From positions 1 through 41,168 of the IMG/VR virus record IMGVR_UViG_3300021959_000108: 41,168 bases of DNA; one strand, given 5' to 3'. Under the pieces are notes generated by a model. That model ran no database searches and was not told the origin of the DNA. It saw only the letters and a list, made by a program, of their open reading frames with translations. The position numbers were made by a program, and so were the translations under genes. Positions 7,371-35,939 of this stretch are shown in pieces (position 1 is the stretch's first letter; the number at the start of each line of letters is the position of its first letter). Origin of the DNA: a virus.

Positions 7371-9812
7371 ATGGCAATTGATCCGTTAAGATTTCTAAAC
7401 GAACAAAAAGCATCGGACATGCTCGATCGTAATATTCCTATGGAAACTATTATAAAAGAGACTGGCATACCTAGAGAGCGTGTTACTGCTATGTTACAAA
7501 GCCAAGGTCTAGATTCAAGTTTTCAACAAAGTAATGTGCCTGCTACTATAAATGCAGGAAGACAACTGTCTCAAACGATGCCCAGTGGTATACCGAGTGT
7601 CCCTATGAATGAAGAGATGGGGGCGTTAGTAGGTCAAGATGTAGCCGACTATCTAGTTGAAGATATAGGTGCAGATCCAGCTAACCCAGGTGAAGTATTA
7701 CCTGTATTAGATAAAAGACAAGAGACAGGTCAAATTGATTCTATTCAAATGTTAGCTTCTGGTAATGAAAAAGATGTAAAAAACATTATAAAAACCAAAG
7801 GCGAAATACTGGCGTCAGATCCTACAGACTTTGATATGGATCAAATTTACGCAGCAGCAGAATTATTACAAGGTAAATTAAAATACAATGAGGATATACC
7901 AAAACCAAGTGAAGGTCTGCCGTGGTTAATGTTAGCTTCTAAGCTAATTAAATCTGGTGCTGAAGGAGATGATTGGAGCACAGCTTTAAGTGAAAGTGCT
8001 TTAGCTTATTTTACAGCTAAAAAATCAGGTGAGTTAAATTACAAAAAAGAATTACGAGCAGAAGACAGACAAAAGTATAGTGATTACAATAACTTAGTAA
8101 TGCAGTTTGGTATGTTAGACTTTAAAAATAAAGCAGCACTTAATAAAGCGTTAAGAGATCAAAGTTTAAAAGCTCCTAAAATGTACGACGTAAGTAATAA
8201 TAGTGAATTTACAGATAAATTAACTATACCCTTATCTGATTCAGCTTTTAGTCTGTACGCTAAAAACTTCCCAGAAAATATAAGACCTGCTAAAAATGCA
8301 GATGTTCAAGCTATGAGTGTGTACACTCAAGATGGTGGCATTTTACATACAATGATGGATCAAGATGCAATCAACGCTTGGGATCCTGCTAGACAAGGTG
8401 GAGCGACATTGAGAGAAGGGCACAAAGACCCAACAAATTTAACATTATACAGCATAAAAAATAAAGATGGTGTTCAACAAGATAATAAATGGTTAACACC
8501 TGATCAATACACAGCACAACAAGAATTAGGTTTTGACCTTACAAGAATTCCTGGAGGTGCACCTAAATTTGTTATAAACAAATCTACAGGCGAGCAAGAA
8601 TTAGTAACCATGGAACAACTTATAGCTAACCCTGACGCATATAGAGACGACGGTGGTTTTAATTTCGTTATGGGAGCAGACGGTGAAGTTGCTTTTACTA
8701 GTGGTTCAGCTGGCATGCAACGTTTATTAAAAGGCAAAGGCATAAAAGCCTATGACGAGTTAGTAGGTGTAGCAGACGCTACTCAACAAGCAGTATTCAA
8801 TTATTTTAGCTCAGCAGGAGAGCAAGATAGAATATTAAAAGAGTTTTTAGAAGCTAATCCTGGTGCAAAAGATTTACCTTTCAATAATCTTGCAGGTACT
8901 GCAACTAGATTTGTAGATTCTCTAAGAATTAATTTTGAGGCTTTTAGTAATGTGTTAGGTGGTGACGCTAAAAACGGTGGTGCTACTTTTTATATTGGAG
9001 ACGAAAAAGTAACTAAAGATGCTTTGTTTACTAATTTTACTAACTCAGAAGGTTATGCAGAATTTAGAGAAAGTCCTTTAGCTAAGTTTTTTGAAGACAA
9101 TGGTGTAGTAGGAGATGCATTAGATGCAGCTTTATTTGATTTAGCTTTAGTAGGAGCATCAACTTATTCTCCTAACAAAGGTGGTTTAGATTTAAGAGCT
9201 ATTTCTGATAGAGATATGATATCGTTTATCAAACTACAAGGTGGTCAAGCTAGATCACTTAACGCTTTTATTGATATTTCAAATAGATTCAGACGTAACT
9301 TAATTAATAGAAACAGAAACGCCTTAAAGCAATTAATAAAACCAACTAACTTAATCAGAATCACTGACGAAAATGATCAACCTGATGAAACTAGAATAGA
9401 AGCTCTTAAAGGTAATGTAGCTAAAACATTATCAGAACTTGATGAGTATGAAACAAAATATCAAACTTCTTACACATATGGTTTGGGTAATCCTGGTGAA
9501 TTAATTACACCTAATACTTTTGTAGTTGACAAAAGTGTAGACGAAGACAATGATAATGTCATAGCTTACAATCCTAGAATTACCATGGACAGTCAAACAG
9601 GACAACAGTTTGGATTTACTAAAGACTATGATTTACAAACGAACACTGAACTAGAAGGCACTTTTAGAGAAATACTTAATAAATACACTGCATTAAGAAG
9701 CCGACCACCAGAATTAAACGCTTATTTTGATAACCTAGTAATGAATTTATCAGAAGAAGAAATGATAGCGTTTAAAATATTCTTACAAAAAGCTCCGCAG
9801 ACAGGTAATTAA
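7371..9812 (+). CDS. Large virion-block protein, function unknown
   Basis: 813 residues. The first ~45 residues form a short helical domain with MLDRNIPMETIIKETGIP, resembling a small helix-turn-helix or UBA-like fold. The remainder is mixed alpha/beta with no motif that I recognise. It is neither Gly-rich nor repetitive, unlike its neighbours. It lies in an unbroken run of large genes with gaps under 10 bases, typical of a structural operon. Size and position fit an internal core or ejection protein of a short-tailed phage, but that is inference. Confidence 0.6.
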   Translation: MAIDPLRFLNEQKASDMLDRNIPMETIIKETGIPRERVTAMLQSQGLDSSFQQSNVPATINAGRQLSQTMPSGIPSVPMNEEMGALVGQDVADYLVEDIGADPANPGEVLPVLDKRQETGQIDSIQMLASGNEKDVKNIIKTKGEILASDPTDFDMDQIYAAAELLQGKLKYNEDIPKPSEGLPWLMLASKLIKSGAEGDDWSTALSESALAYFTAKKSGELNYKKELRAEDRQKYSDYNNLVMQFGMLDFKNKAALNKALRDQSLKAPKMYDVSNNSEFTDKLTIPLSDSAFSLYAKNFPENIRPAKNADVQAMSVYTQDGGILHTMMDQDAINAWDPARQGGATLREGHKDPTNLTLYSIKNKDGVQQDNKWLTPDQYTAQQELGFDLTRIPGGAPKFVINKSTGEQELVTMEQLIANPDAYRDDGGFNFVMGADGEVAFTSGSAGMQRLLKGKGIKAYDELVGVADATQQAVFNYFSSAGEQDRILKEFLEANPGAKDLPFNNLAGTATRFVDSLRINFEAFSNVLGGDAKNGGATFYIGDEKVTKDALFTNFTNSEGYAEFRESPLAKFFEDNGVVGDALDAALFDLALVGASTYSPNKGGLDLRAISDRDMISFIKLQGGQARSLNAFIDISNRFRRNLINRNRNALKQLIKPTNLIRITDENDQPDETRIEALKGNVAKTLSELDEYETKYQTSYTYGLGNPGELITPNTFVVDKSVDEDNDNVIAYNPRITMDSQTGQQFGFTKDYDLQTNTELEGTFREILNKYTALRSRPPELNAYFDNLVMNLSEEEMIAFKIFLQKAPQTGN

Positions 9813-19997: not shown

Positions 19998-20492
19998 ATG
20001 AATATATTTTATGTAAATACAGACCCAGCTAAAGCTGCCATCTGTCTACCAGATAAACTAGTAGTCAAAATGCCTTTAGAAAGTGCTCAAATGCTTTCAA
20101 CTGCCCACCGTGTACATAACGGTGAGGAGTGGTGTGACCTTAACGGTATTTATAAAAAAGCCTATCTTAATCACCCTTGTACTATATGGGCTAGGGAATC
20201 AGTACAAAACTATACGTGGCTTTACTATCATTTTTATGCTTTATGTAAAGAATACGAAACTAGGTACGATAGGCAACACCTTAGTTTTGTTAAACTTAAT
20301 GATAAGTTATGTCAAGCACCTGTAGGTATGCCTGATATTGGTCTTACTCCCATGCCCCAAGCTATGCCCGACCAGTACAAAGACTCTGACCCAGTAAAAG
20401 CCTATCGTAATTATTTAATTAACGAAAAGCATTACGCCCAGTGGAATAAATGTACACCTAAACCTAACTGGTGGGTAAAGGAAGCAGTATGA
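19998..20492 (+). CDS. Conserved phage protein (MNIF/DP...KMPLESAQMLSTAHR family)
   Basis: 164 residues, AGGAG before the ATG. The N-terminus NTDPAKAAICLPDKLVVKMP runs into LESAQMLSTAHRV. NHPCTIWARESVQNYTWL and YRNYLINEKHYAQW follow. These blocks define a family common in phages with large replication modules; I recall it sometimes being labelled pyrimidine-dimer glycosylase-like, which I cannot confirm. Conserved His, Lys, Glu and Trp suggest an enzyme acting on DNA or nucleotides. It begins the cluster holding the thymidine-modification genes and overlaps the next gene (ATGA). Confidence 0.65.
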   Translation: MNIFYVNTDPAKAAICLPDKLVVKMPLESAQMLSTAHRVHNGEEWCDLNGIYKKAYLNHPCTIWARESVQNYTWLYYHFYALCKEYETRYDRQHLSFVKLNDKLCQAPVGMPDIGLTPMPQAMPDQYKDSDPVKAYRNYLINEKHYAQWNKCTPKPNWWVKEAV

Positions 20493-21319
20493 ATCAAGAA
20501 GAAATACAAAAGTTTTTTAATTATTTAAACGAACGTCATATTGTATATCTACGTCGCCAAAATGGCGTGTCTTATCCGTGGACTAGTGATGCCATACTAA
20601 CTGAGTATAGTTTTTGTAATGTATATCGTGAACTAGATAGAGTTACAGAATGGATACGAGTCAACTGGCGAGAACCTTATGCCGACCACCCTAACCTACC
20701 TTTTGCTATGTCTATGGCTAGGCAAATTAATTGGCCAGACACTTTAGAAGAGTTAGGTTTTCCTGAGCATTGGAATCCTAAACGTTTAAAAGCTATAATG
20801 CAAGGTAGAATGGATAGAAAAGAAAAAGTATATACTGGTGCGTACATGTTGACAGGCACGTTAGGTGGTACTAAAATAGAACAAACTATAGATAAAATAC
20901 TCACACCTTTATATGAACACCACCCACCTATGATAAAAGATTCGTTAGAAGAAACATGGAAAGGGTATCAAAAACACGCTGGGTTTAGCGGGTTCATGGC
21001 TTACGAGGTAGTGACTGATTTACGTCACACTAAGTGGTTAAGAAACGCTAAAGATATTATGACTTGGGCTAACCCTGGACCTGGAGCTCAGCGTGGCTTA
21101 AATAGAATACACCATAGAGAACTTAATAAAACGATTAAGAAGCCACAATTAAATTTTGAGATGAAAGTGTTACTAGATTGCTCCCCTGAATATTTACAAG
21201 GGCATATGCTACCACTAGAAATGAGAGATATTGAACACTGCCTTTGCGAGTTCGATAAATATGAACGTACACGTTTGGGTGAAGGCAGACCACGTGCAAA
21301 ATATAAGGTAAATAAATGA
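20489..21319 (+). CDS. aGPT-Pplase / 5-hmdU DNA kinase helical-domain-like protein
   Basis: 276 residues from the ATG in the ATGA overlap at 20489 (an upstream in-frame start adds only six residues). The N-terminal block has RHIVYLRRQNG, YPWTSD and ILTEYSFCNVYRELD, which strongly resembles the helical domain predicted by comparative genomics (Iyer and colleagues, 2013) in alpha-glutamyl/putrescinyl-thymine pyrophosphorylases and 5-hydroxymethyl-dU DNA kinases. No P-loop kinase is fused. Such proteins are thought to act on activated 5-hydroxymethyl-dU in phage DNA. The next genes encode a glycosyltransferase and a ThyA-type enzyme, which supports a hypermodification role. Family assignment is fairly sure; the reaction is not. 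Confidence 0.7.
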   Translation: MNQEEIQKFFNYLNERHIVYLRRQNGVSYPWTSDAILTEYSFCNVYRELDRVTEWIRVNWREPYADHPNLPFAMSMARQINWPDTLEELGFPEHWNPKRLKAIMQGRMDRKEKVYTGAYMLTGTLGGTKIEQTIDKILTPLYEHHPPMIKDSLEETWKGYQKHAGFSGFMAYEVVTDLRHTKWLRNAKDIMTWANPGPGAQRGLNRIHHRELNKTIKKPQLNFEMKVLLDCSPEYLQGHMLPLEMRDIEHCLCEFDKYERTRLGEGRPRAKYKVNK

Positions 21320-22089
21320 GAATTTTTATTCCTACAAGAGGTAGGGCAGACAGCCAAGTAACCTTGTCTTTCTTTCCAGAAGAATTACGCAAAGAGGTAA
21401 CACTAGTAGTAGACGAGCATGAGAAAGATTTATACTCAGCTTATGATTGTAAAATTATGGTATGTGATGACACCGTTCATGATATAGCTACTAAGCGTAA
21501 GTTTATTCATGACAACACTGACGACAATAAAATAGTTATGTTAGATGATGACTTACGTTTCTATATTCGTAAAGCTACTAACGACTGGCATTTAAGATAC
21601 CTTGAACCTGAGGAATACCCTGCGTTATTTGGGCTATTAGATGTATGGCTTGATGACTATGCTCACTGTGGCGTAAGTGCTAGGGAAGGCAACAATAGAG
21701 TTGAGGCTCTATCAGTAGAAACTACAAGGTACATGAGGTTACTAGCCTACAACTTAGATAAGTTTGACGGTGTAGAGTTAGCAAGAACTAGAGTCATGGA
21801 AGATTTTGATATTAATTTACAACTTCTTAAAAAAGGATATCCTAGTAAGATAAGTTATTACTATGCTCAAGGTCAAGGTAGTTCTAATGCTGCTGGTGGC
21901 TGTAGTGAGTGGCGTACTTTAGATGTGCAGTCCGAAGGTGCAGAGTTATTAGCTAAGTTACACCCCGAGGTAGTAACAGTAGTAGAAAAAGAAACTAAAA
22001 CTGCTTGGGGTGGTGCGATTCGTAAGGACGTAAAAGTTATGTGGAAAAAAGCATTAAAACAAGGTGCTGAAAACGGTGAACTATTTTAG
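21316..22089 (+). CDS. GT-A glycosyltransferase, probably DNA-base modifying
   Basis: 257 residues. The N-terminus MRIFIPTRGRADSQ is a GT2-like nucleotide-sugar-binding start. The metal motif is VMLDDDLRFY (D77-D79). VMEDFDINLQLLKKGYP near residue 160 resembles the ED catalytic-base region. This architecture fits the phage glycosyltransferases predicted to act on hydroxymethylated bases in DNA (TET/JBP-associated type). It overlaps the aGPT-Pplase-like gene by 4 bases and is followed 9 bases later by the ThyA-type gene, so the three are one operon segment. Donor sugar and acceptor base are unknown. Confidence 0.75.
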   Translation: MRIFIPTRGRADSQVTLSFFPEELRKEVTLVVDEHEKDLYSAYDCKIMVCDDTVHDIATKRKFIHDNTDDNKIVMLDDDLRFYIRKATNDWHLRYLEPEEYPALFGLLDVWLDDYAHCGVSAREGNNRVEALSVETTRYMRLLAYNLDKFDGVELARTRVMEDFDINLQLLKKGYPSKISYYYAQGQGSSNAAGGCSEWRTLDVQSEGAELLAKLHPEVVTVVEKETKTAWGGAIRKDVKVMWKKALKQGAENGELF

Positions 22090-22098
22090 GAGATATGA

Positions 22099-23115
22099 AT
22101 GTTAGTTATTAATTGTAGAAATGTAAATGATGGTTTTATAAGAGGTCTAGACGTACTCAATGAGTTTAGAGATGATGTCAAAGGTAGTCGTGTAGGTCAA
22201 GTTATAGAAGCTCCGTGTCCTGTGGCTACTGTATATCATAATCCTACTGAAAGAGTTTTATTCGAACCTATTCGTAAAGCTAATCCTTTCTTCCATTTTA
22301 TGGAAAGTTTATGGATGCTTGGCGGTCGTAACGATTTAGATTATGTGGTTAAATACAATAAACGCATGAAAGAATATAGTGATGATGGTGTTGTTTTACA
22401 CGGTGCCTATGGTTATAGGTGGCGTGAACACTTTGGCGGTGATCAAATAGAAGTAGTTATTCAAAGATTACAAGCAGATCCTAACGATAGACGTTGCGTT
22501 GTTCAAATGTGGGATCCGTTAGTTGATTTAAATAGAGCAGGTGTTGATGTTCCTTGTAATACTGTTATCTATTTTAAAGTACGAGATGATGAGTTGTTAA
22601 TGACAGTAAGTAATAGGTCAAATGATATAATTTGGGGAACGTTTGGTGCTAATGCAGTTCATATGTCTATGTTACATGAGTATGTGGCTAGTGCTTTAAT
22701 GTTGCATGTGGGTAAGTATACTCAAATAAGTGATAGTTTCCATGCATACACTGATGTATTTGAGGACATGCATGCTAAATTAGAAGCAGAGGATGCTTTT
22801 GATTACTACAATATGAAAGAAAGTATTAACCCATACGAAAATAAATCTATTAATCCTTATCCTATGATGTCAGTAGATTCTTTTACATGGGATACAGATT
22901 TAGTTAATTTTTTGGACCGTAAACCTTTTCAAGAAATGGAATTTACGGATGATTTTTTTACCGACGTAGCCTGTTCACTGCAGGATGCTTGGTACTGTTA
23001 TAAGAAAGAAGAGTACGAAGAGGCGTTGGTTGAAGTTCAAAGGTGTGAGGCTACTGATTGGTGCACTGCTGGGTTTGACTGGCTAAATAAAGCGATCAAA
23101 AACAAGGAAAAGTAA
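22099..23115 (+). CDS. Thymidylate synthase-superfamily enzyme, possible dUMP hydroxymethylase
   Basis: 338 residues, TAGGAG before the ATG. ThyA-fold motifs: phosphate-binding DRRCVVQMWDP, active-site Cys153 in DVPCNTVIYF, NRSNDIIWGTFGANAVHMSM (equivalent of the TS RSxDxxLGxPFNxxxY block) and SDSFHAYTD (GDxHxY equivalent). It transfers a one-carbon unit from methylene-tetrahydrofolate to a dNMP. The retained Asn in FGANAV suggests a uracil rather than cytosine substrate. PCN instead of PCH and the altered loop differ from housekeeping ThyA. Beside base-modification genes, production of 5-hydroxymethyl-dUMP is plausible, but plain dTMP synthesis cannot be excluded. Confidence 0.8.
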   Translation: MLVINCRNVNDGFIRGLDVLNEFRDDVKGSRVGQVIEAPCPVATVYHNPTERVLFEPIRKANPFFHFMESLWMLGGRNDLDYVVKYNKRMKEYSDDGVVLHGAYGYRWREHFGGDQIEVVIQRLQADPNDRRCVVQMWDPLVDLNRAGVDVPCNTVIYFKVRDDELLMTVSNRSNDIIWGTFGANAVHMSMLHEYVASALMLHVGKYTQISDSFHAYTDVFEDMHAKLEAEDAFDYYNMKESINPYENKSINPYPMMSVDSFTWDTDLVNFLDRKPFQEMEFTDDFFTDVACSLQDAWYCYKKEEYEEALVEVQRCEATDWCTAGFDWLNKAIKNKEK

Positions 23116-23798
23116 TGGCTAATATACCACAGTGGTCTTATAGTAGACTCAAAACATTTGAAGGGTGCCCAAAGAAAGCAGAGTATGCGTACATAGAAAG
23201 AATAAAAGAACCTGGCAATAAAGCCATGGACAGAGGTAAAGATATTCATAAAGAATGTGAAGAATATATAAGGGGTAGGTATGATGAGATACCTAAAGCC
23301 CTACAGGATTTTGAAGAAGCCTTTGACCTATTAAAAGATATGCATTTAAAAGGGCATGTACTTTGTGAAGGTGACTGGGCTTTTACTACTGAATGGGAAC
23401 CCACAGGTTGGTTTGATCACGATACATGGGGTAGAGCTAAAGTAGATGCTTTTGTTCATGTTGAAGGTGATAAAAACGCTAGGGTAATTGATTTTAAAAC
23501 AGGTAGGTATGATGGTAATCAAGAAGGTCATAGAGAACAGTGTGAGCTGTATGCTTCTATAGTTTTTAAAAGGCTACCAGAGTTAGAAACTATAACTACT
23601 GAGCTGTGGTATTTAGACCATGGTAAGTTAGATAGGTATCAATACGATAAAGAAACAGTAAACGCCAAGCGTGAAAGACTAAACGCTAGGGCTGTAGAAA
23701 TGACGACGACTGAGGAGTTCCCTGCTAGACCTTCCCAGTTTAAATGTAAATGGTGTTACTTTGGTAAACAAAATATTTGCCCTAGTAGACACGAATAA
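23115..23798 (+). CDS. Cas4/RecB-like PD-(D/E)XK nuclease
   Basis: 227 residues, TAATG overlap with the ThyA-type gene. WSYSRLKTFEGCPKKAEYAY, then His45 in DIHKECEEY, an Asp in AKVDAFVHV (~110) and VIDFKTGRY (~126) give the RecB-nuclease motif order. A single N-terminal Cys18 plus a C-terminal C-x2-C-x7-C (CKWCYFGKQNIC) matches the iron-sulphur arrangement of Cas4/AddB-type nucleases. It probably acts as a single-strand exonuclease in phage recombination or end processing. There is no CRISPR array nearby, so a CRISPR adaptation role is unlikely. Confidence 0.82.
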   Translation: MANIPQWSYSRLKTFEGCPKKAEYAYIERIKEPGNKAMDRGKDIHKECEEYIRGRYDEIPKALQDFEEAFDLLKDMHLKGHVLCEGDWAFTTEWEPTGWFDHDTWGRAKVDAFVHVEGDKNARVIDFKTGRYDGNQEGHREQCELYASIVFKRLPELETITTELWYLDHGKLDRYQYDKETVNAKRERLNARAVEMTTTEEFPARPSQFKCKWCYFGKQNICPSRHE

Positions 23799-23811: not shown

Positions 23812-24129
23812 ATGGCAGCAGATTTTGATAGAATTAAAAACCTAACCGAGCAGGATATAGAGTGTTTAAAAAACGCTGAAGTATCTTACGGTGACAGTTG
23901 GCGTAAACGTGGTGGCATAGGTGCTTTTATGATGTTAGCACGTAAGTGGGATAGGATAGAAAACCAAACTAATAAACAAGGTTATGATATGTTTGCTGCT
24001 ATTTTTGCTGACACTACAGATACTGGTTTACTAGATGACATACGTGACCTTAGAAGGTATCTATTATTAGTTGAGTCTTTTACAGCACAAGTACTAGAAG
24101 AAGCAAATAAACAACAAAATGATACTTGA
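23812..24129 (+). CDS. Conserved phage protein, DUF1599/NMAD1-like
   Basis: 105 residues from the ATG at 23812, preceded by AAAGGAG; a 17-residue upstream extension lacks this signal. Key blocks: VSYGDSWRKRGG, AFMMLARKWDRIEN and LLDDIRDLRRYLLLVE. The order YGxxW, KxDRIEN, DDIRDLxxYLL resembles the nucleotide-modification-associated domain 1 (DUF1599), a helical domain that comparative genomics ties to nucleotide and base-modification gene sets. Its place two genes after the ThyA-type enzyme fits. The assignment is by eye and moderate. Confidence 0.6.
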   Translation: MAADFDRIKNLTEQDIECLKNAEVSYGDSWRKRGGIGAFMMLARKWDRIENQTNKQGYDMFAAIFADTTDTGLLDDIRDLRRYLLLVESFTAQVLEEANKQQNDT

Positions 24130-24214
24130 GGCTGTAGGTATAGTTGTGGGATTATTTTTATTATTTAACATTATTATGGCTGTCTTGATCTACATCAAAG
24201 TTAGAGGATATTGA
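24119..24214 (+). CDS. 31-residue single-TM micropeptide
   Basis: ATG overlaps the end of the preceding gene by 11 bases and its TGA overlaps the PolA start in an ATGA-type arrangement. The product is almost entirely one hydrophobic helix (VGIVVGLFLLFNIIMAVLIY) with a basic end (KVRGY). No family is recognised. Coupling on both sides makes it a likely real gene, easily missed because of its length. Confidence 0.45.
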   Translation: MILEAVGIVVGLFLLFNIIMAVLIYIKVRGY

Positions 24215-26097
24215 TGCAACCTTCTTTATTTACACCTGAAACTGATTGGCTACCCCCTACTAGTTTACCTGAGCTTAGTCAGTTTAAAGAAGTAGCTATA
24301 GACTTAGAAACTTACGACCCTTTACTCATGTCTCATGGACCGTCTTGGGCGTTTGAAGGGCAAGGTTATGTAACTGGTATAGCTATAGCTACAGAAAAGT
24401 TTGCTATCTACTTACCTATACAACATGTGGGTGGAGGTAACTTAGATAAAAGAGTAGTGACTGAGTGGTTAAAGAAAGAACTTATACACGAAAACGATAA
24501 GATTTTTCATAATTCTTTATATGACATGGGGTGGCTTAGAAGAATGGGTGTTCATGTTGGCGGTAAAATACACGACACTATGTTTGCTGCACCTTTAGTT
24601 GATGAAAATCAATATGGGTATTCACTAAATAAATTAGGGCAAAGATATGTGGGAGAGGTAAAAGATGAGACACTACTTGAAGAAGCAGCAAAAGCCTATA
24701 AGATAAATCCTAAGTCTGAAATGTATAAGCTACCAGCTAAGTATGTAGGTAAGTATGCAGAACAAGATGCAGCACTCACTTTAAAACTTTGGGGTATTTT
24801 AAAAGAAGGGTTGAAGAGTGAAAACGTAGAGAAAATTTATGAACTTGAAACCAGTTTAATTCCTATTCTACTAGACATGAGATGGAAAGGTGTTCCTGTT
24901 GATATGGATAGAGCTGAAGTAGTAAGTAAAAAGTTAATGAGTGAAGAACGTTCTATACTGCAACGTATACACAAAGAATATGGTGTCACTCCAGATTTAT
25001 GGGCAGCAAAATCAGTAGCTACAGTATTTGACAGGGCAGGTCTTAGTTACCCAAGAACTCCTAAAACTAATGCCCCTTCTTTTAGTGGAGACTGGTTAGA
25101 ATCTCACGACCATAAACTAGCTAATGACATAGCAAGAGCACGTAAACTAAATAAAGCTAGAACAACATTTATAGATAAGATGGTTTTAGAACACAACGTC
25201 AAGGGCAGAATACATGGAGAACTTCATCCGCTACGCTCCGACCGTGGTGGCACTGTGACAGGTAGATTTAGTAGTAGCAACCCTAACTTACAACAAGTAC
25301 CAGCAAGACATGATGAAATCGGTCCACTCATACGAAGTATATTTGTGCCTGAAAAAGATATGCATTGGGGAGCTTTTGACTACTCTCAACAAGAGCCTAG
25401 ACTTACTGTACACTACGCTTCAATTACCGAGCAGGAAGGTGCAGCAGACGCAGTGGACGCTTATAAAAACAAGGACGCAGACTTTCATCAAGTAGTAGCA
25501 GACATGGCTAATATAAGCCGTAAAGAAGCTAAGATTATTAATCTTGGTCTTAGTTATGGCATGGGAAAAGATAAACTTATATCTCAATTAGATATTTCTC
25601 CTCAAGAAGCGGAGATATTATTTGATACGTTTCATAGGCGTGTACCTTTTATAAAAGGTTTAAGAGATCAGTGTGCTAGGCTAGGTAATAACCGTGGATT
25701 TATCACTACTGTTTTAGGGCGTAAGTGTAGGTTTAATTTATTTGAACCTAGATTTGATAGAGAAACTCCTTTACCCCATTCAGATGCTTTAGAAAAATAC
25801 GGTGAAGATATTAAACGTGCTTTTACATACAAAGCTATGAATAGATTAATACAAGGTTCAGCTGCAGATATGACTAAAAAAGCTATGGTTGAATTGTACA
25901 AAGAAGGCATTCTACCTCATACACAGATACATGATGAGCTAGATATCTCAGTGAGTAGCATAGAAGATTGTGAAAAGATTATACAGATTATGGCAGATTG
26001 TGTTCCTTTAGTTGTACCTAACAAAGTGGACGCAGAGATAGGTCATAGTTGGGGCACAGCTGTAGAAAACTACAAGGAGTTTTATAATGGTAGGTAA
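24214..26097 (+). CDS. polA: Family A DNA polymerase with 3'-5' exonuclease
   Basis: 627 residues from the ATG at 24214. DEDDy exonuclease: D30 and E32 in AIDLETYD, FHNSLYDMGWLRR, and YAEQDAALTLKLW. Polymerase motif A is AFDYSQQEPRL (~386-398), motif B RKEAKIINLGLSYG (R436 to G448), motif C IHDELD (H573-D574-E575). There is no 5' nuclease domain, as usual in phages. The residue equivalent to E. coli Phe762 is Leu444, a variant that studies of marine viral polA link to slower, more discriminating polymerases. It copies the phage genome with the AEP primase and SF1 helicase encoded upstream. Confidence 0.96.
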   Translation: MQPSLFTPETDWLPPTSLPELSQFKEVAIDLETYDPLLMSHGPSWAFEGQGYVTGIAIATEKFAIYLPIQHVGGGNLDKRVVTEWLKKELIHENDKIFHNSLYDMGWLRRMGVHVGGKIHDTMFAAPLVDENQYGYSLNKLGQRYVGEVKDETLLEEAAKAYKINPKSEMYKLPAKYVGKYAEQDAALTLKLWGILKEGLKSENVEKIYELETSLIPILLDMRWKGVPVDMDRAEVVSKKLMSEERSILQRIHKEYGVTPDLWAAKSVATVFDRAGLSYPRTPKTNAPSFSGDWLESHDHKLANDIARARKLNKARTTFIDKMVLEHNVKGRIHGELHPLRSDRGGTVTGRFSSSNPNLQQVPARHDEIGPLIRSIFVPEKDMHWGAFDYSQQEPRLTVHYASITEQEGAADAVDAYKNKDADFHQVVADMANISRKEAKIINLGLSYGMGKDKLISQLDISPQEAEILFDTFHRRVPFIKGLRDQCARLGNNRGFITTVLGRKCRFNLFEPRFDRETPLPHSDALEKYGEDIKRAFTYKAMNRLIQGSAADMTKKAMVELYKEGILPHTQIHDELDISVSSIEDCEKIIQIMADCVPLVVPNKVDAEIGHSWGTAVENYKEFYNGR

Positions 26098-30362: not shown

Positions 30363-30822
30363 ACAAGAAAAATTCGCACAGAATGTAGCTAAAGGCATGT
30401 CTAAAAAAGATGCTGCTATTGATGCAGGCTACAGTGAAAAGAACGCAACTAAAGCTGGTTACGTGTTAACGAGTGATGAGAACCCATTAGTACAAGAAAA
30501 AATACAAGCCTTACAAAATAGAGCCAGTAAAAAAGCGAGTCTAGATTTAGCTACTCACCTCACAGATTTAAAAGATATAAGAGAAGGGGCTATGCGTAAT
30601 GGTGCGTGGTCTGCTGCGGTTGGTGCAGAAGTTGCTAGGGGTAAGGCAGCAGGTCTATATATTAATCGTAGTGAGCTTGTAGTCAATAAAGTTGAGACTA
30701 TGAACAAAGATCAAATACTAGAACGTATGAAAGAAATTTATCACGATACAGGTGGCATATTACCTATGGGCACTATTATCGAAGGTGAAGATTTTGACGA
30801 AAAAGACGATGATATTCTATAG
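30334..30822 (+). CDS. Terminase small subunit
   Basis: 162 residues. LTPKQEKFAQNVAKGMSKKD followed by AAIDAGYSEKNATKAGYVL is the classic N-terminal HTH of the terminase_2 family (KQxxFxxxxxxGxxxxxAAxxAGYSxxxA). A coiled central helix and an acidic tail (EGEDFDEKDDDIL) follow. It recognises phage DNA to start packaging and hands it to the large subunit. No large subunit follows in this window; the next genes are oxygenases and small proteins. The large subunit presumably lies outside the window. Confidence 0.9.
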   Translation: MTKKQKLTPKQEKFAQNVAKGMSKKDAAIDAGYSEKNATKAGYVLTSDENPLVQEKIQALQNRASKKASLDLATHLTDLKDIREGAMRNGAWSAAVGAEVARGKAAGLYINRSELVVNKVETMNKDQILERMKEIYHDTGGILPMGTIIEGEDFDEKDDDIL

Positions 30823-31393
30823 AAAAAGTTTGTTCGGTGGCTTTGACCACAAAATAGATAAATGGGATGCTCCTAGAGAAAGACTATTTGACGGTGCTAT
30901 GGTAAAAGGTAGACCAACACGTGGTTTTGGAGATGCTAGTTTTAACTATGCTGGTAAGTTGTATGAACCTGAGCTTTGGACACATCCTATGGAGCTTATC
31001 AAGTATGCTGCGGAGAATGTAGCCTCACGTTATTTTAAAAGAGACATCGTATTTAATTTTTGTCTCTGTGGTTTTTATGGTCTAGACGGTAAAGGCATTC
31101 CGCATCATTCTGACACAGTTCCTACTTTAGAAGATGTCGTAGTTTCTATATCTTTTGGTGGTCCTCGAGTTTTTGTACAACGTACTTATCAAAACCCAAT
31201 CAAAAAACAACCGAATACCAGTGAGATAGACGCCATAACAGAGAATTTTATAATAGATGAAAAACACTATATTTTAGAACATGGCGACGTTATTATGTTT
31301 GACGGTCATAATCAAATGTATTCTACTCACGCTGTAAGTGATTTAGAGTTAGCTCAAGAAAGAGTCAACCTCACTTTTAGGTCAGGGATATGA
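30809..31393 (+). CDS. AlkB-like 2OG-Fe(II) dioxygenase
   Basis: 194 residues from the ATG at 30809, overlapping the terminase gene by 14 bases; an earlier in-frame start adds 19 residues read mostly within the terminase gene. Iron ligands H100 and D102 in GIPHHSDTV, distal H174 in YSTHAV, and RVNLTFR providing the 2-oxoglutarate Arg and the AlkB-type substrate Arg. AlkB-like enzymes hydroxylate or demethylate nucleic-acid bases. It could repair phage DNA or oxidise a base, perhaps together with the thymidine modification cassette. Family is sure; substrate unknown. Confidence 0.88.
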   Translation: MIFYRKSLFGGFDHKIDKWDAPRERLFDGAMVKGRPTRGFGDASFNYAGKLYEPELWTHPMELIKYAAENVASRYFKRDIVFNFCLCGFYGLDGKGIPHHSDTVPTLEDVVVSISFGGPRVFVQRTYQNPIKKQPNTSEIDAITENFIIDEKHYILEHGDVIMFDGHNQMYSTHAVSDLELAQERVNLTFRSGI

Positions 31394-31566
31394 CAAAAGA
31401 CGTAGTTGAGATGATTTTTTATATGGATAACGCAGTAGAAGCTGAATACCCAGAAATAAGATCAGCTGCCAGTAAAGCACTACACTCTGGCAAAATTATG
31501 GGGTTCGCTGTTAACAGACCCAGTAAAAAGAAACAAGAAAGACTAGCTAAACGGAAGAAAAAATAA
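31390..31566 (+). CDS. Small basic hypothetical protein
   Basis: 58 residues, ATGA overlap with the upstream oxygenase and TAATG overlap with the next oxygenase. An N-terminal helical half (VEMIFYMDNAVEAEYPEIR) and a Lys/Arg-rich C-terminus (KKKQERLAKRKKK). No family is recognised. Coupling on both sides strongly supports it. It might bind nucleic acid. Confidence 0.6.
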   Translation: MTKDVVEMIFYMDNAVEAEYPEIRSAASKALHSGKIMGFAVNRPSKKKQERLAKRKKK

Positions 31567-32273
31567 TGTCAAACATCAAACAAATAATGCCTTATCGGTT
31601 AAAAAACTCGCTTCTAGGCGTTCAGGGAGAGTGGCTCGTGGATAAAACTACCCTCGCCCTTGTACAAGACTCCGAGAATGATATTGAACAATACGAAATA
31701 CACGAAGGACAAAAAGATCTCATTACACCTATACAAGAATATGTAACAGAAGTATTACCAGATGTTTTTACGATGCCTTTATTTACTCAAGAGTTTTGCA
31801 CTATGATGTTAGATGAAATAGAACACATGGAACATTATCTTGGTTTTGAACCTAACTCTGACGAAGATTTTTTACGTCAAATACCAGAAATCACTCTTCA
31901 CGATAACTGCCCACCCTTATTTGATAATCTGTGGTCAGTAGCTCTTAACTACCTCAACCCTGCATTTATGGCGTTGTGGCAAAGATACTCCGTGCGTCCT
32001 GGGAGTATACAGTTGGCTAACTATAACATAGCCAAAAAACAACAGGGTGCTTGGCATCATGATACGTCTGCAGATCTTAGTGTTGTGGTGCCTCTGAATA
32101 CTAGTGGGTATAAAGGTGGAGGAACTGAGTTTCACCGTAAAGGGATTGTAGACCCCTTACCCAGCGGTACAGCTTTAATGTTTCCTAGTTTTAGCCACAT
32201 GCATCGTGGACTACCTGTTGAAGAAGGGGATAGATACTTGCTTGTATTTTGGCTCATGGGTAACTTTGAGTAA
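31566..32273 (+). CDS. 2OG-Fe(II) oxygenase (prolyl-hydroxylase/PKHD-like)
   Basis: 235 residues. The C-terminal double-stranded beta helix has H164 and D166 in AWHHDTSADLSVVVPLN, then GYKGGGTEFHRKG, PSGTALMFPSFSHMHRGLPV with the distal His (H211 or H213), and GDRYLLVFWL with the 2-oxoglutarate-binding Arg. The N-terminal ~90 residues are an extra helical region. Members hydroxylate proteins or small molecules; phage members are common in marine genomes and their substrates are unknown. It lies one small gene after the AlkB-like enzyme. The large noncoding RNA region follows. Confidence 0.88.
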   Translation: MSNIKQIMPYRLKNSLLGVQGEWLVDKTTLALVQDSENDIEQYEIHEGQKDLITPIQEYVTEVLPDVFTMPLFTQEFCTMMLDEIEHMEHYLGFEPNSDEDFLRQIPEITLHDNCPPLFDNLWSVALNYLNPAFMALWQRYSVRPGSIQLANYNIAKKQQGAWHHDTSADLSVVVPLNTSGYKGGGTEFHRKGIVDPLPSGTALMFPSFSHMHRGLPVEEGDRYLLVFWLMGNFE

Positions 32274-34986: not shown

Positions 34987-35192
34987 CACATACAGCAGAT
35001 AGTATTTACGCTAGAAATCGTAGGCTTAACTGGATATACAATGATGACACTGAAAGCTGGACAGCAGTAGAAGGTAATGGTATTTGTATAGCTTTTAAAG
35101 ACCCTCTAGACTATGAACAATGCGGTAAACAAGCCGAGATATTAAATCGTTTTAATGAAATGAATAAAAGTAACAGGAGTAAACTCAAATGA
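34983..35192 (+). CDS. Small hypothetical protein
   Basis: 69 residues in an ATGA overlap. RRLNWIYNDDTESWTAVEGN suggests a small beta-sheet domain, and the C-terminal half is helical. No family is recognised. Confidence 0.5.
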   Translation: MTHTADSIYARNRRLNWIYNDDTESWTAVEGNGICIAFKDPLDYEQCGKQAEILNRFNEMNKSNRSKLK

Positions 35193-35515
35193 GCTTAGAA
35201 AATAATCAATTATTAATGGGTACGTTAGTTTTTCAAATTGAAGAGTGGGCTAGAATGCGTGGTTTATTGACCGCCGACGTTAGACCAGAAATGCAGATGC
35301 TCAAGCTAGTTGAAGAAGTAGGTGAAACTGCTAAGGCTTTAGCATATGATGATATGTGGTCACTAAAAGACGGTATTGGTGATTGTCTCGTGTGCCTGAT
35401 TGTATTAGCTAAACAAAAAGATTTAACTCTTGACGAGTGTCTATTAGCAGCATATGAAGAAATCAAAGACCGTACAGGTACACTAGAAAATGGATTATTC
35501 AAAAAAGATAGCTAA
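35189..35515 (+). CDS. MazG-like nucleotide pyrophosphohydrolase
   Basis: 108 residues. KLVEEVGETAKAL and DGIGDCLVCLIVLA give the MazG helix pair (EExxE and a D/ExxD metal motif), and a third helix ends AAYEEIKDRTG. Such enzymes hydrolyse dNTPs or NTPs to monophosphates and pyrophosphate. In phages with unusual bases they may remove normal dNTPs; other marine phage MazG proteins are thought to adjust nucleotide metabolism. It lies just before a nucleotidyltransferase with a 26-base overlap. Confidence 0.85.
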   Translation: MSLENNQLLMGTLVFQIEEWARMRGLLTADVRPEMQMLKLVEEVGETAKALAYDDMWSLKDGIGDCLVCLIVLAKQKDLTLDECLLAAYEEIKDRTGTLENGLFKKDS

Positions 35516-35939
35516 GATAGGATTTACCTGTGGTGCGTTTGATTTACTACACGCTGGTCATATTGTTATGCTTAAAGAAGCTAAAGAAAACTGTGACCAC
35601 CTTATTGTGGGTCTACAGACTGACCCGACTATAGATCGAAAGAAAAAGAACCAACCTGTACAATCCATGTATGAACGGTATGTACAATTACAAGCCATAA
35701 AGTATGTAGATGAAATACTGCCTTATGATACCGAACTGAGTCTCTGTGATTTATTAGAGTCCACCCATATAGATATAAGATTCGTAGGGGATGACTACAG
35801 AGACCGTGGGTTTACAGGTATGGAGATAAGTAGGGAGTCTGGAGAAATTTACTTCACCTCTAGAAATCATAGTTTCAGCACCAGTGGTTTGCGTGACCGA
35901 GTAGTTTCTAAACCACACACTACCGATAGGAAAAAATAA
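35490..35939 (+). CDS. TagD/HldE-like cytidylyltransferase-fold nucleotidyltransferase
   Basis: 149 residues. TCGAFDLLHAGHIVML contains the HxGH nucleotide-binding motif (residues ~14-25), SMYERYVQLQAIKYVDEI the second block, FVGDDYRDRG the substrate loop and SFSTSGLRDR the ST-x-x-R motif. Family members transfer CMP or AMP to glycerol-phosphate, heptose-phosphate or similar. In a phage with a glycosyltransferase, making an activated donor for DNA modification is a possible role. Next to MazG. Substrate is unknown. Confidence 0.85.
   Translation: MDYSKKIAKIGFTCGAFDLLHAGHIVMLKEAKENCDHLIVGLQTDPTIDRKKKNQPVQSMYERYVQLQAIKYVDEILPYDTELSLCDLLESTHIDIRFVGDDYRDRGFTGMEISRESGEIYFTSRNHSFSTSGLRDRVVSKPHTTDRKK

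Follow-up and report, generated by a model that had tools for sequence, protein, structure and literature searches.

Introduction

Among the described systems, the thymidine hypermodification pathway of phage M6 and its relatives YuA, PaMx11 and SN1 comes closest to the locus studied here, a three-gene cassette in the IMG/VR record IMGVR_UViG_3300021959_000108. This linear record of 41,168 nt, a fragment and not a whole genome, was analysed over its full length and is referred to below as the window. The cassette encodes a HMUDK_hel protein (aGPT-PPlase1, 'HEL'), a TAGT-family GT-A glycosyltransferase and a ThyA-superfamily enzyme. M6 DNA contains 5-(2-aminoethyl)deoxyuridine, a hypermodified thymidine (PMC6449724), and M6 and the window have in common a HMUDK_hel protein (42%) and a ThyA homologue of the dUMP-hydroxymethylase type (46%), encoded in the same order next to a family A polymerase gene. 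However, M6 also possesses a 5-hydroxymethyl-deoxyuridine (5-hmdU) DNA kinase, an amino acid:DNA transferase (ADDT), a pyridoxal phosphate enzyme, a radical S-adenosylmethionine (SAM) enzyme and Nmad5 (PMC9476957), none of which was found in the window, where a single glycosyltransferase gene lies between those for HMUDK_hel and ThyA. Judged by its sequence, the cassette is predicted to work like a hypermodification cassette, yet it lacks the kinase and ADDT features that define the M6 pathway.

Other described systems share single aspects with this locus. Passages of a 2022 paper on pelagiphages report that a thymidylate synthase, aGPT-PPlase1 and a putative glycosyltransferase co-occur in this phage lineage, and the same passages make no mention of kinase exclusivity, of an active-site assignment or of partner swapping (PMC9599517); by their polymerases (49-54%), the HTVC023P-type pelagiphages, in which thymidylate synthase and aG/PT-PPlase1 are partner genes, belong to the same lineage as the window. 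The genome report of the cultured Brevibacterium phage LuckyBarnes described a hydroxymethylase, called a dCMP-hydroxymethylase, together with two glycosyltransferases, and suggested DNA modification. There, the same three families are adjacent, but two TAGT paralogues are present and the sequences are distant (~29-30%). Base J of kinetoplastids, which involves JBP and the base J glucosyltransferase, is a glycosylated 5-hydroxymethyluracil (5hmU) in DNA, as is predicted here. In base J synthesis, however, thymine is oxidised within DNA, whereas in the window hydroxymethylation is predicted to take place on dUMP and no TET/JBP enzyme was found among the open reading frames (ORFs) scanned. Finally, the TAGT of T6-like phages belongs to the same Pfam family (PF20691) and is described as likely adding a second glucose to glucosylated hydroxymethylcytosine (PMC13390438).

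Here we propose that the three genes probably form a cassette for thymine replacement and subsequent glycosylation. Three points appear to be new, namely that TAGT strictly excludes kinase and ADDT, that several unrelated partners replace one another on a constant HMUDK_hel/ThyA core, and that the LuckyBarnes enzyme is assigned to dU, as we did not find them stated in a literature comparison that lay outside the main thymidine-hypermodification papers (Lee 2018, Lee 2022, Iyer 2013).

Results

The genes for HMUDK_hel (276 aa, 20489..21319), TAGT (257 aa, 21316..22089) and the ThyA-type enzyme (338 aa, 22099..23115) lie closely packed on the forward strand. HMUDK_hel starts within the upstream gene with an overlap of 4 bp (ATGA, 20489-20492), the TAGT start overlaps the HMUDK_hel end by 4 bp, 9 bp separate TAGT from ThyA, and the ThyA stop codon shares 1 bp with the start of the next gene. 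A previous annotation made from the letters of the window (the sequence-only reading) had placed three genes here and highlighted the motifs ILTEYSFCNVYRELD, LDDDLRF, PCN and FGANAV; all three ORFs are open at these positions and each motif was recovered. Comparison of loci showed that the cassette is conserved across relatives within the clade.

The profile of the 5-hmdU kinase (PF18748) matched nothing in the entire window, also when matches up to E<=10 were allowed, and ADDT (PF18724) had no match among the window ORFs scanned, namely those of ~100 aa or longer and several shorter ones. Since the window is a fragment, the missing kinase is weak evidence when taken from the window alone; the stronger test is that over 60 related records lack it as well. 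Scans of IMG/VR identified 51 relatives of TAGT and 74 of HMUDK_hel. Family searches of 50 whole records detected HMUDK_hel in 49, ThyA in 49 and TAGT above the cut-off in 43 (42 from IMG/VR plus the genome MW202897). The kinase was present in three of the 50, and these same three, none with TAGT above the cut-off, also encode ADDT; PF18748 matched none of the 42 IMG/VR records with TAGT. In a whole-record Pfam search, PF18748 was likewise found in 0 of 31 records of the TAGT type or with another glycosyltransferase, versus 9 of 10 kinase-type records. This profile can miss divergent kinases, as for contig L139, whose kinase was found solely by a profile built for this analysis.

A wider scan starting from a divergent HMUDK_hel sequence returned 218 loci, 80 of which were kept. 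Exclusivity was assessed, using profiles built for this analysis, on 143 loci flanked by 3 kb or more on each side, which were reduced to 56 representatives at 70% identity. Eighteen representatives carry the kinase, 20 carry TAGT, none carries both and 18 carry neither (Fisher p 5e-5); among the 49 with ThyA nearby, the corresponding numbers are 18, 20, 0 and 11 (p 3e-6). All kinase and TAGT genes are on the same strand as HMUDK_hel, and the amino acid:DNA transferase was never found together with TAGT, neither in the 50 whole records nor in the 56 representatives. On the HMUDK_hel tree, in which some branches are long, the TAGT and kinase labels each require at least two changes. Overall, HMUDK_hel is combined in these loci with a kinase, with TAGT or with neither, never with both, and the exchange of the kinase for a sugar transferase is met again in many phages that are not related. 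This lends strong comparative support to the kinase-free route suggested in the sequence-only reading, which had named direct glycosylation as one option; glycosylation is indeed the probable second step. The view that the locus is a thymidine-modification cassette is likewise supported.

The ThyA-type enzyme matches PF00303 with 76.8 bits (cut-off 24.3) and phrog_5131 with E 4e-117, and its catalytic Cys lies in a PCN motif. M6/YuA-type proteins are its closest annotated relatives, with ~46% identity. We aligned it with SPO1 gp29 (annotated as a dUMP hydroxymethylase), T4 gp42 (a dCMP hydroxymethylase) and E. coli ThyA, the last being what we take to be the reference sequence. In this alignment, whose residue-177 column was adjusted by hand for a one-residue insertion, the window enzyme matches SPO1 gp29 in having Met for Trp80, Asp for Leu143, PCN for PCH and RSND for RSCD and in keeping Asn177. 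This Asn is found in GTFGAN, and the GxxGAN context is identical in SPO1 gp29. Position 177, in E. coli numbering, selects the pyrimidine and is Asp in dCMP enzymes; T4 gp42 carries a CTN motif and an Asp at this site. The combination of PCN, RSND and Asn recurs in each of the 20 TAGT-type representatives. Sequence does not readily distinguish hydroxymethylases from synthases (PMC5977210); on the basis of these residues we predict that the window enzyme is a dUMP hydroxymethylase with 5-hmdUMP, and not dTMP or hmdCMP, as its product. The sequence-only reading had called the motifs non-canonical, which is correct with respect to thymidylate synthase but not for dUMP hydroxymethylases, in which they are the normal ones. 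Its suggestion that 5-hmdU is made at the nucleotide level is supported by the SPO1-like signature and the similarity to the M6 homologue.

The HMUDK_hel protein matches PF18723 with 154.8 bits (cut-off 25, E 4e-45) and phrog_2396 with E 6e-59, so that the profile search placed it in the family to which it had been tentatively assigned, and in no unrelated one. Thirty-four residues are invariant over kinase-type and glycosyltransferase-type homologues. Its AlphaFold2 model (pLDDT 93.5) has as its best PDB fold match the 5-phosphomethyl-dU glycinyltransferase gp46 of PaMx11 (8z2n; probability 0.98, E 0.066, TM 0.42), which is not significant by E-value, followed at far lower scores by helix-hairpin-helix DNA glycosylases. 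Sequence searches of HMUDK_hel and TAGT against the PDB returned nothing. HMUDK_hel is found alongside partners as different as a kinase, a methyltransferase and GT-A or GT-B enzymes. The simplest reading is therefore that it does one and the same thing for all of them when 5-hmdU is acted upon, such as flipping the base, and the swapping of partners indicates that it is not a kinase-only part. In what is the most speculative element of our proposal, HMUDK_hel would present or flip 5-hmdU in DNA for whichever transferase is encoded. The beta-glucosyltransferase of T4 glucosylates 5hmU in duplex DNA only if it is mispaired with G (PMC4111573), which makes a helper for 5hmU paired with A plausible.

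The TAGT protein matches PF20691 with 66.3 bits (cut-off 27.5, E 5e-18) and phrog_842, annotated as beta-glucosyl-HMC-alpha-glucosyltransferase, with E 1e-47. Its acidic DDD motif (D77-D78-D79, within LDDDLRF) is invariant in 26 homologues, and its model (pLDDT 80) retrieved GT-A enzymes in Foldseek (E ~2e-4). The protein would probably transfer a sugar onto 5-hmdU in DNA.

Where kinase and TAGT are both missing, a different candidate partner usually adjoins HMUDK_hel. This is a GT-B glycosyltransferase in L104-L107, L155 and L181 (weak Pfam match), and a related GT-B-like protein, linked to it by hhalign at E 1e-4 with a probability of only 57%, in L148, L149, L159 and L193 as well as, together with TAGT, in L102 and L143. 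A SAM methyltransferase adjoins HMUDK_hel in L109, and an FkbM-domain methyltransferase lies between HMUDK_hel and TAGT in L051; FkbM-type methyltransferases often act on sugars. Seven contigs without kinase and TAGT (L142, L145, L153, L154, L179, L194 and L196) share a family of ~310 aa beside HMUDK_hel/ThyA, for which Pfam and PHROG searches gave no convincing identity and hhalign comparison to GT-B families was non-significant. A C-terminal 'SPANRFYE' block in this family recalls GT-B enzymes. Contig L145 additionally encodes, between HMUDK_hel and ThyA (8810-9589), a weakly sulfotransferase-like protein (PF13469 E 3e-4, below the cut-off), and a sulfated base decoration is possible there. 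Moreover, dUTPase and YfbR-like HD nucleotidases occur in the cassettes of relatives, which fits a control of nucleotide pools.

Individual phages illustrate these arrangements. In Goe26, kinase and HMUDK_hel are fused in one protein. M6 gp54 (L002, 7426-7989), annotated as a terminase small subunit, is the 5-hmdU DNA kinase according to PF18748 (E 8e-18), and is followed by HMUDK_hel, Nmad5 and ThyA. The actinophage LuckyBarnes (L113) encodes ThyA, two TAGT proteins and HMUDK_hel in a row and had no kinase match; its ThyA homologue gp41 has the dUMP-type Asn and PCN, so a modified thymine is more likely than the published dCMP-hydroxymethylase label implies. In Microbacterium phage Bustleton (L115), a distant HMUDK_hel lies near a ThyA homologue with the T4-type CTN and Asp, hinting that HMUDK_hel may also serve hydroxymethylcytosine. 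HMUDK_hel without ThyA within ~8 kb was seen in L135, L161, L175, L188, L198 and L146, mostly contigs of 100-460 kb, and in L135 it adjoins a homologue of inosine-uridine nucleoside hydrolase.

The window phage is placed by its polymerase as a relative of ocean Pelagibacter phages: the protein is 54% identical to that of 023Pt_psg01 and 49% to those of the Pelagibacter phages HTVC027P and HTVC023P and of DSL-LC04. All four genomes share the primase-helicase-polymerase order of the window. HMUDK_hel and ThyA were found in none of them, and they were not among the matches of a TAGT search of the phage collection, suggesting that the cassette was gained or lost as a block. A small terminase subunit gene is present in the window; large terminase, portal and capsid genes were not recognised by Pfam among the ORFs scanned, and a structural-region protein used for placing the phage had no matches.

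The genes located below between 19998 and 26097 and the MazG-like and TagD-like genes are on the forward strand. Upstream of the cassette lie a UvrD-like helicase gene and, directly before HMUDK_hel, a gene for a pyrimidine-dimer-glycosylase-like protein (19998..20492, PF03013 E 2.5e-10), which our model does not need; it precedes HMUDK_hel in most close relatives and is missing from others. Downstream, ThyA is followed by a PD-(D/E)XK exonuclease (23115..23798, PF12705 E 9e-20), conserved at this place in the clade, a small conserved protein without Pfam family that falls within the cassette region (23812..24129, with 98 homologous ORFs in the compared loci) and the family A DNA polymerase (24211..26097, PF00476 E 9e-58), which adjoins the cassette. 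The small protein had been labelled DUF1599-like, and this label was discarded after a Pfam search of the protein and 25 family members gave no DUF1599 match for any of them. The MazG and TagD-like genes named as possible supporting functions are both present, a MazG-like nucleotide pyrophosphohydrolase (35189..35515, PF03819 E 3e-7) as a speculative pool enzyme and a TagD-like cytidylyltransferase (35490..35939, PF01467 E 5e-16) as a speculative donor-activating enzyme. In many relatives, TagD-like homologues sit between ThyA and PolA, which makes an involvement plausible, but no more, and the enzyme might produce the activated donor. Two 2-oxoglutarate-Fe(II) oxygenases, AlkB-like and OGFOD2-like, are encoded at 30752-31393 and 31566-32273, and homologues of the former fall within the replication operon of some relatives. 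Neither a second glycosyltransferase nor a Tet_JBP enzyme was matched among the window ORFs scanned by Pfam, and promoter and terminator scans were near chance level.

Discussion

Our analysis suggests a four-step scheme. The ThyA-like enzyme, judged by its active-site signature, would hydroxymethylate dUMP to 5-hmdUMP, host or phage kinases would convert this to the triphosphate, and the polymerase would insert 5-hmdU opposite A. TAGT would then use a nucleotide sugar as donor and glycosylate 5-hmdU in DNA at its hydroxymethyl oxygen, a step to which the gene swapping points and which would replace the kinase and ADDT found in M6-like phages. In the fourth and weakest step, HMUDK_hel may bind duplex DNA and flip or present 5-hmdU to the glycosyltransferase, a role it may equally have towards the kinase of M6-like phages. 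Together, these steps would yield a base-J-like DNA that blocks host nucleases. More tentatively, and with somewhat less than even confidence, we extend this to a wider proposal in which HMUDK_hel is a general 5-hmdU-presenting subunit with interchangeable decorators (a kinase together with an amino acid transferase, a GT-A, a GT-B or a methyltransferase), and in which 5-hydroxymethyluracil is directly glycosylated in a large number of phages over a wide ecological range, as their equivalent of base J, reached by a nucleotide-level route.

Other explanations have to be weighed against the glycosylation cassette. An M6-like, kinase-initiated pathway could operate if the kinase gene lay in another part of the genome or had diverged too far to be detected, with the glycosyltransferase adding a further group. 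The fragmentary window is compatible with this, as is the behaviour of PF18748, which stays below the cut-off in PaMx11 and AIIMS-Plu-RaNi and is absent for L139. Nevertheless, we regard it as unlikely, since several of the 42 kinase-free IMG/VR records with TAGT are 59-64 kb long, like complete relatives (57.6-61.5 kb), a kinase profile from divergent seeds finds none either, and the downstream ADDT is missing as well. Modification of cytosine as in T-even phages, where ThyA would yield 5-hmdCMP and TAGT would glycosylate 5-hydroxymethylcytosine, would agree with the annotation of phrog_842, with the dCMP-hydroxymethylase predicted for LuckyBarnes and with the CMP hydroxymethylase (5b6d/5jnh) that is the closest solved structure of the ThyA by sequence. 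It appears quite unlikely given that residue 177 is Asn and not Asp in the window enzyme, in LuckyBarnes and in 20 of 20 TAGT-type representatives, and given that the relatives of HMUDK_hel come from phages with modified thymine (M6, phiW-14).

It is also conceivable that ThyA functions as a standard thymidylate synthase and that TAGT and HMUDK_hel act elsewhere, for example on a molecule at the surface of the host or the virion. The window was found to encode no further ThyA, such synthases are frequent in phages, and the difficulty of telling the two enzyme classes apart applies here too. Such a reading seems very improbable to us in view of the five diagnostic active-site places that match SPO1 gp29 and not E. 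coli ThyA, the M6-type best relatives, the occurrence of ThyA near HMUDK_hel in 49 of the 56 representatives and the modification of DNA bases by the TAGT family in T6-like phages. Equally improbable is that HMUDK_hel has transferase activity of its own, as has its fold relative PUGT/ADDT, and that the glycosyltransferase extends the group which HMUDK_hel adds. The PaMx11 glycinyltransferase as top fold match and the many invariant polar residues would fit such an activity, but M6-like phages encode a separate ADDT beside HMUDK_hel, the kinase fusion in Goe26 points to the 5-hmdU step, and HMUDK_hel persists as its partners change.

Some observations count against the proposed thymine-replacement and glycosylation cassette itself. 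The sequences of the clade are related and the counts are not fully independent, and with representatives at 50% identity the p values are 0.02 for all loci and 0.007 for those with ThyA nearby; in addition, IMG/VR records may be fragments. The complete 40.4-kb genome MW202897 (L003) encodes TAGT, a dUMP-type ThyA and an HD nucleotidase and has no HMUDK_hel, which indicates that HMUDK_hel is not always required; a search for relatives of its TAGT found none. The fold match of HMUDK_hel is weak by both E-value and TM score, and as a profile comparison with ADDT aligned a short stretch with no significant link, the homology of the two rests on this weak fold similarity. Furthermore, because TAGT of T6-like phages likely acts on glucosylated cytosine, the family alone does not fix the acceptor or the order of the reactions.

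If the scheme is correct, the Pfam domain that is now named for a kinase would be redefined, and the cassettes would offer candidate enzymes to write base-J-like marks on A-paired 5hmU, of which T4 beta-glucosyltransferase is incapable. As LuckyBarnes is a cultured phage, the scheme is directly testable. Thymine modification in phages would be modular, with a fixed core of dUMP hydroxymethylase and HMUDK_hel and a swappable tailoring enzyme. Glycosylated thymine, so far a matter of kinetoplastids and a small number of phages, would then occur across a broad class of phages from water and soil.

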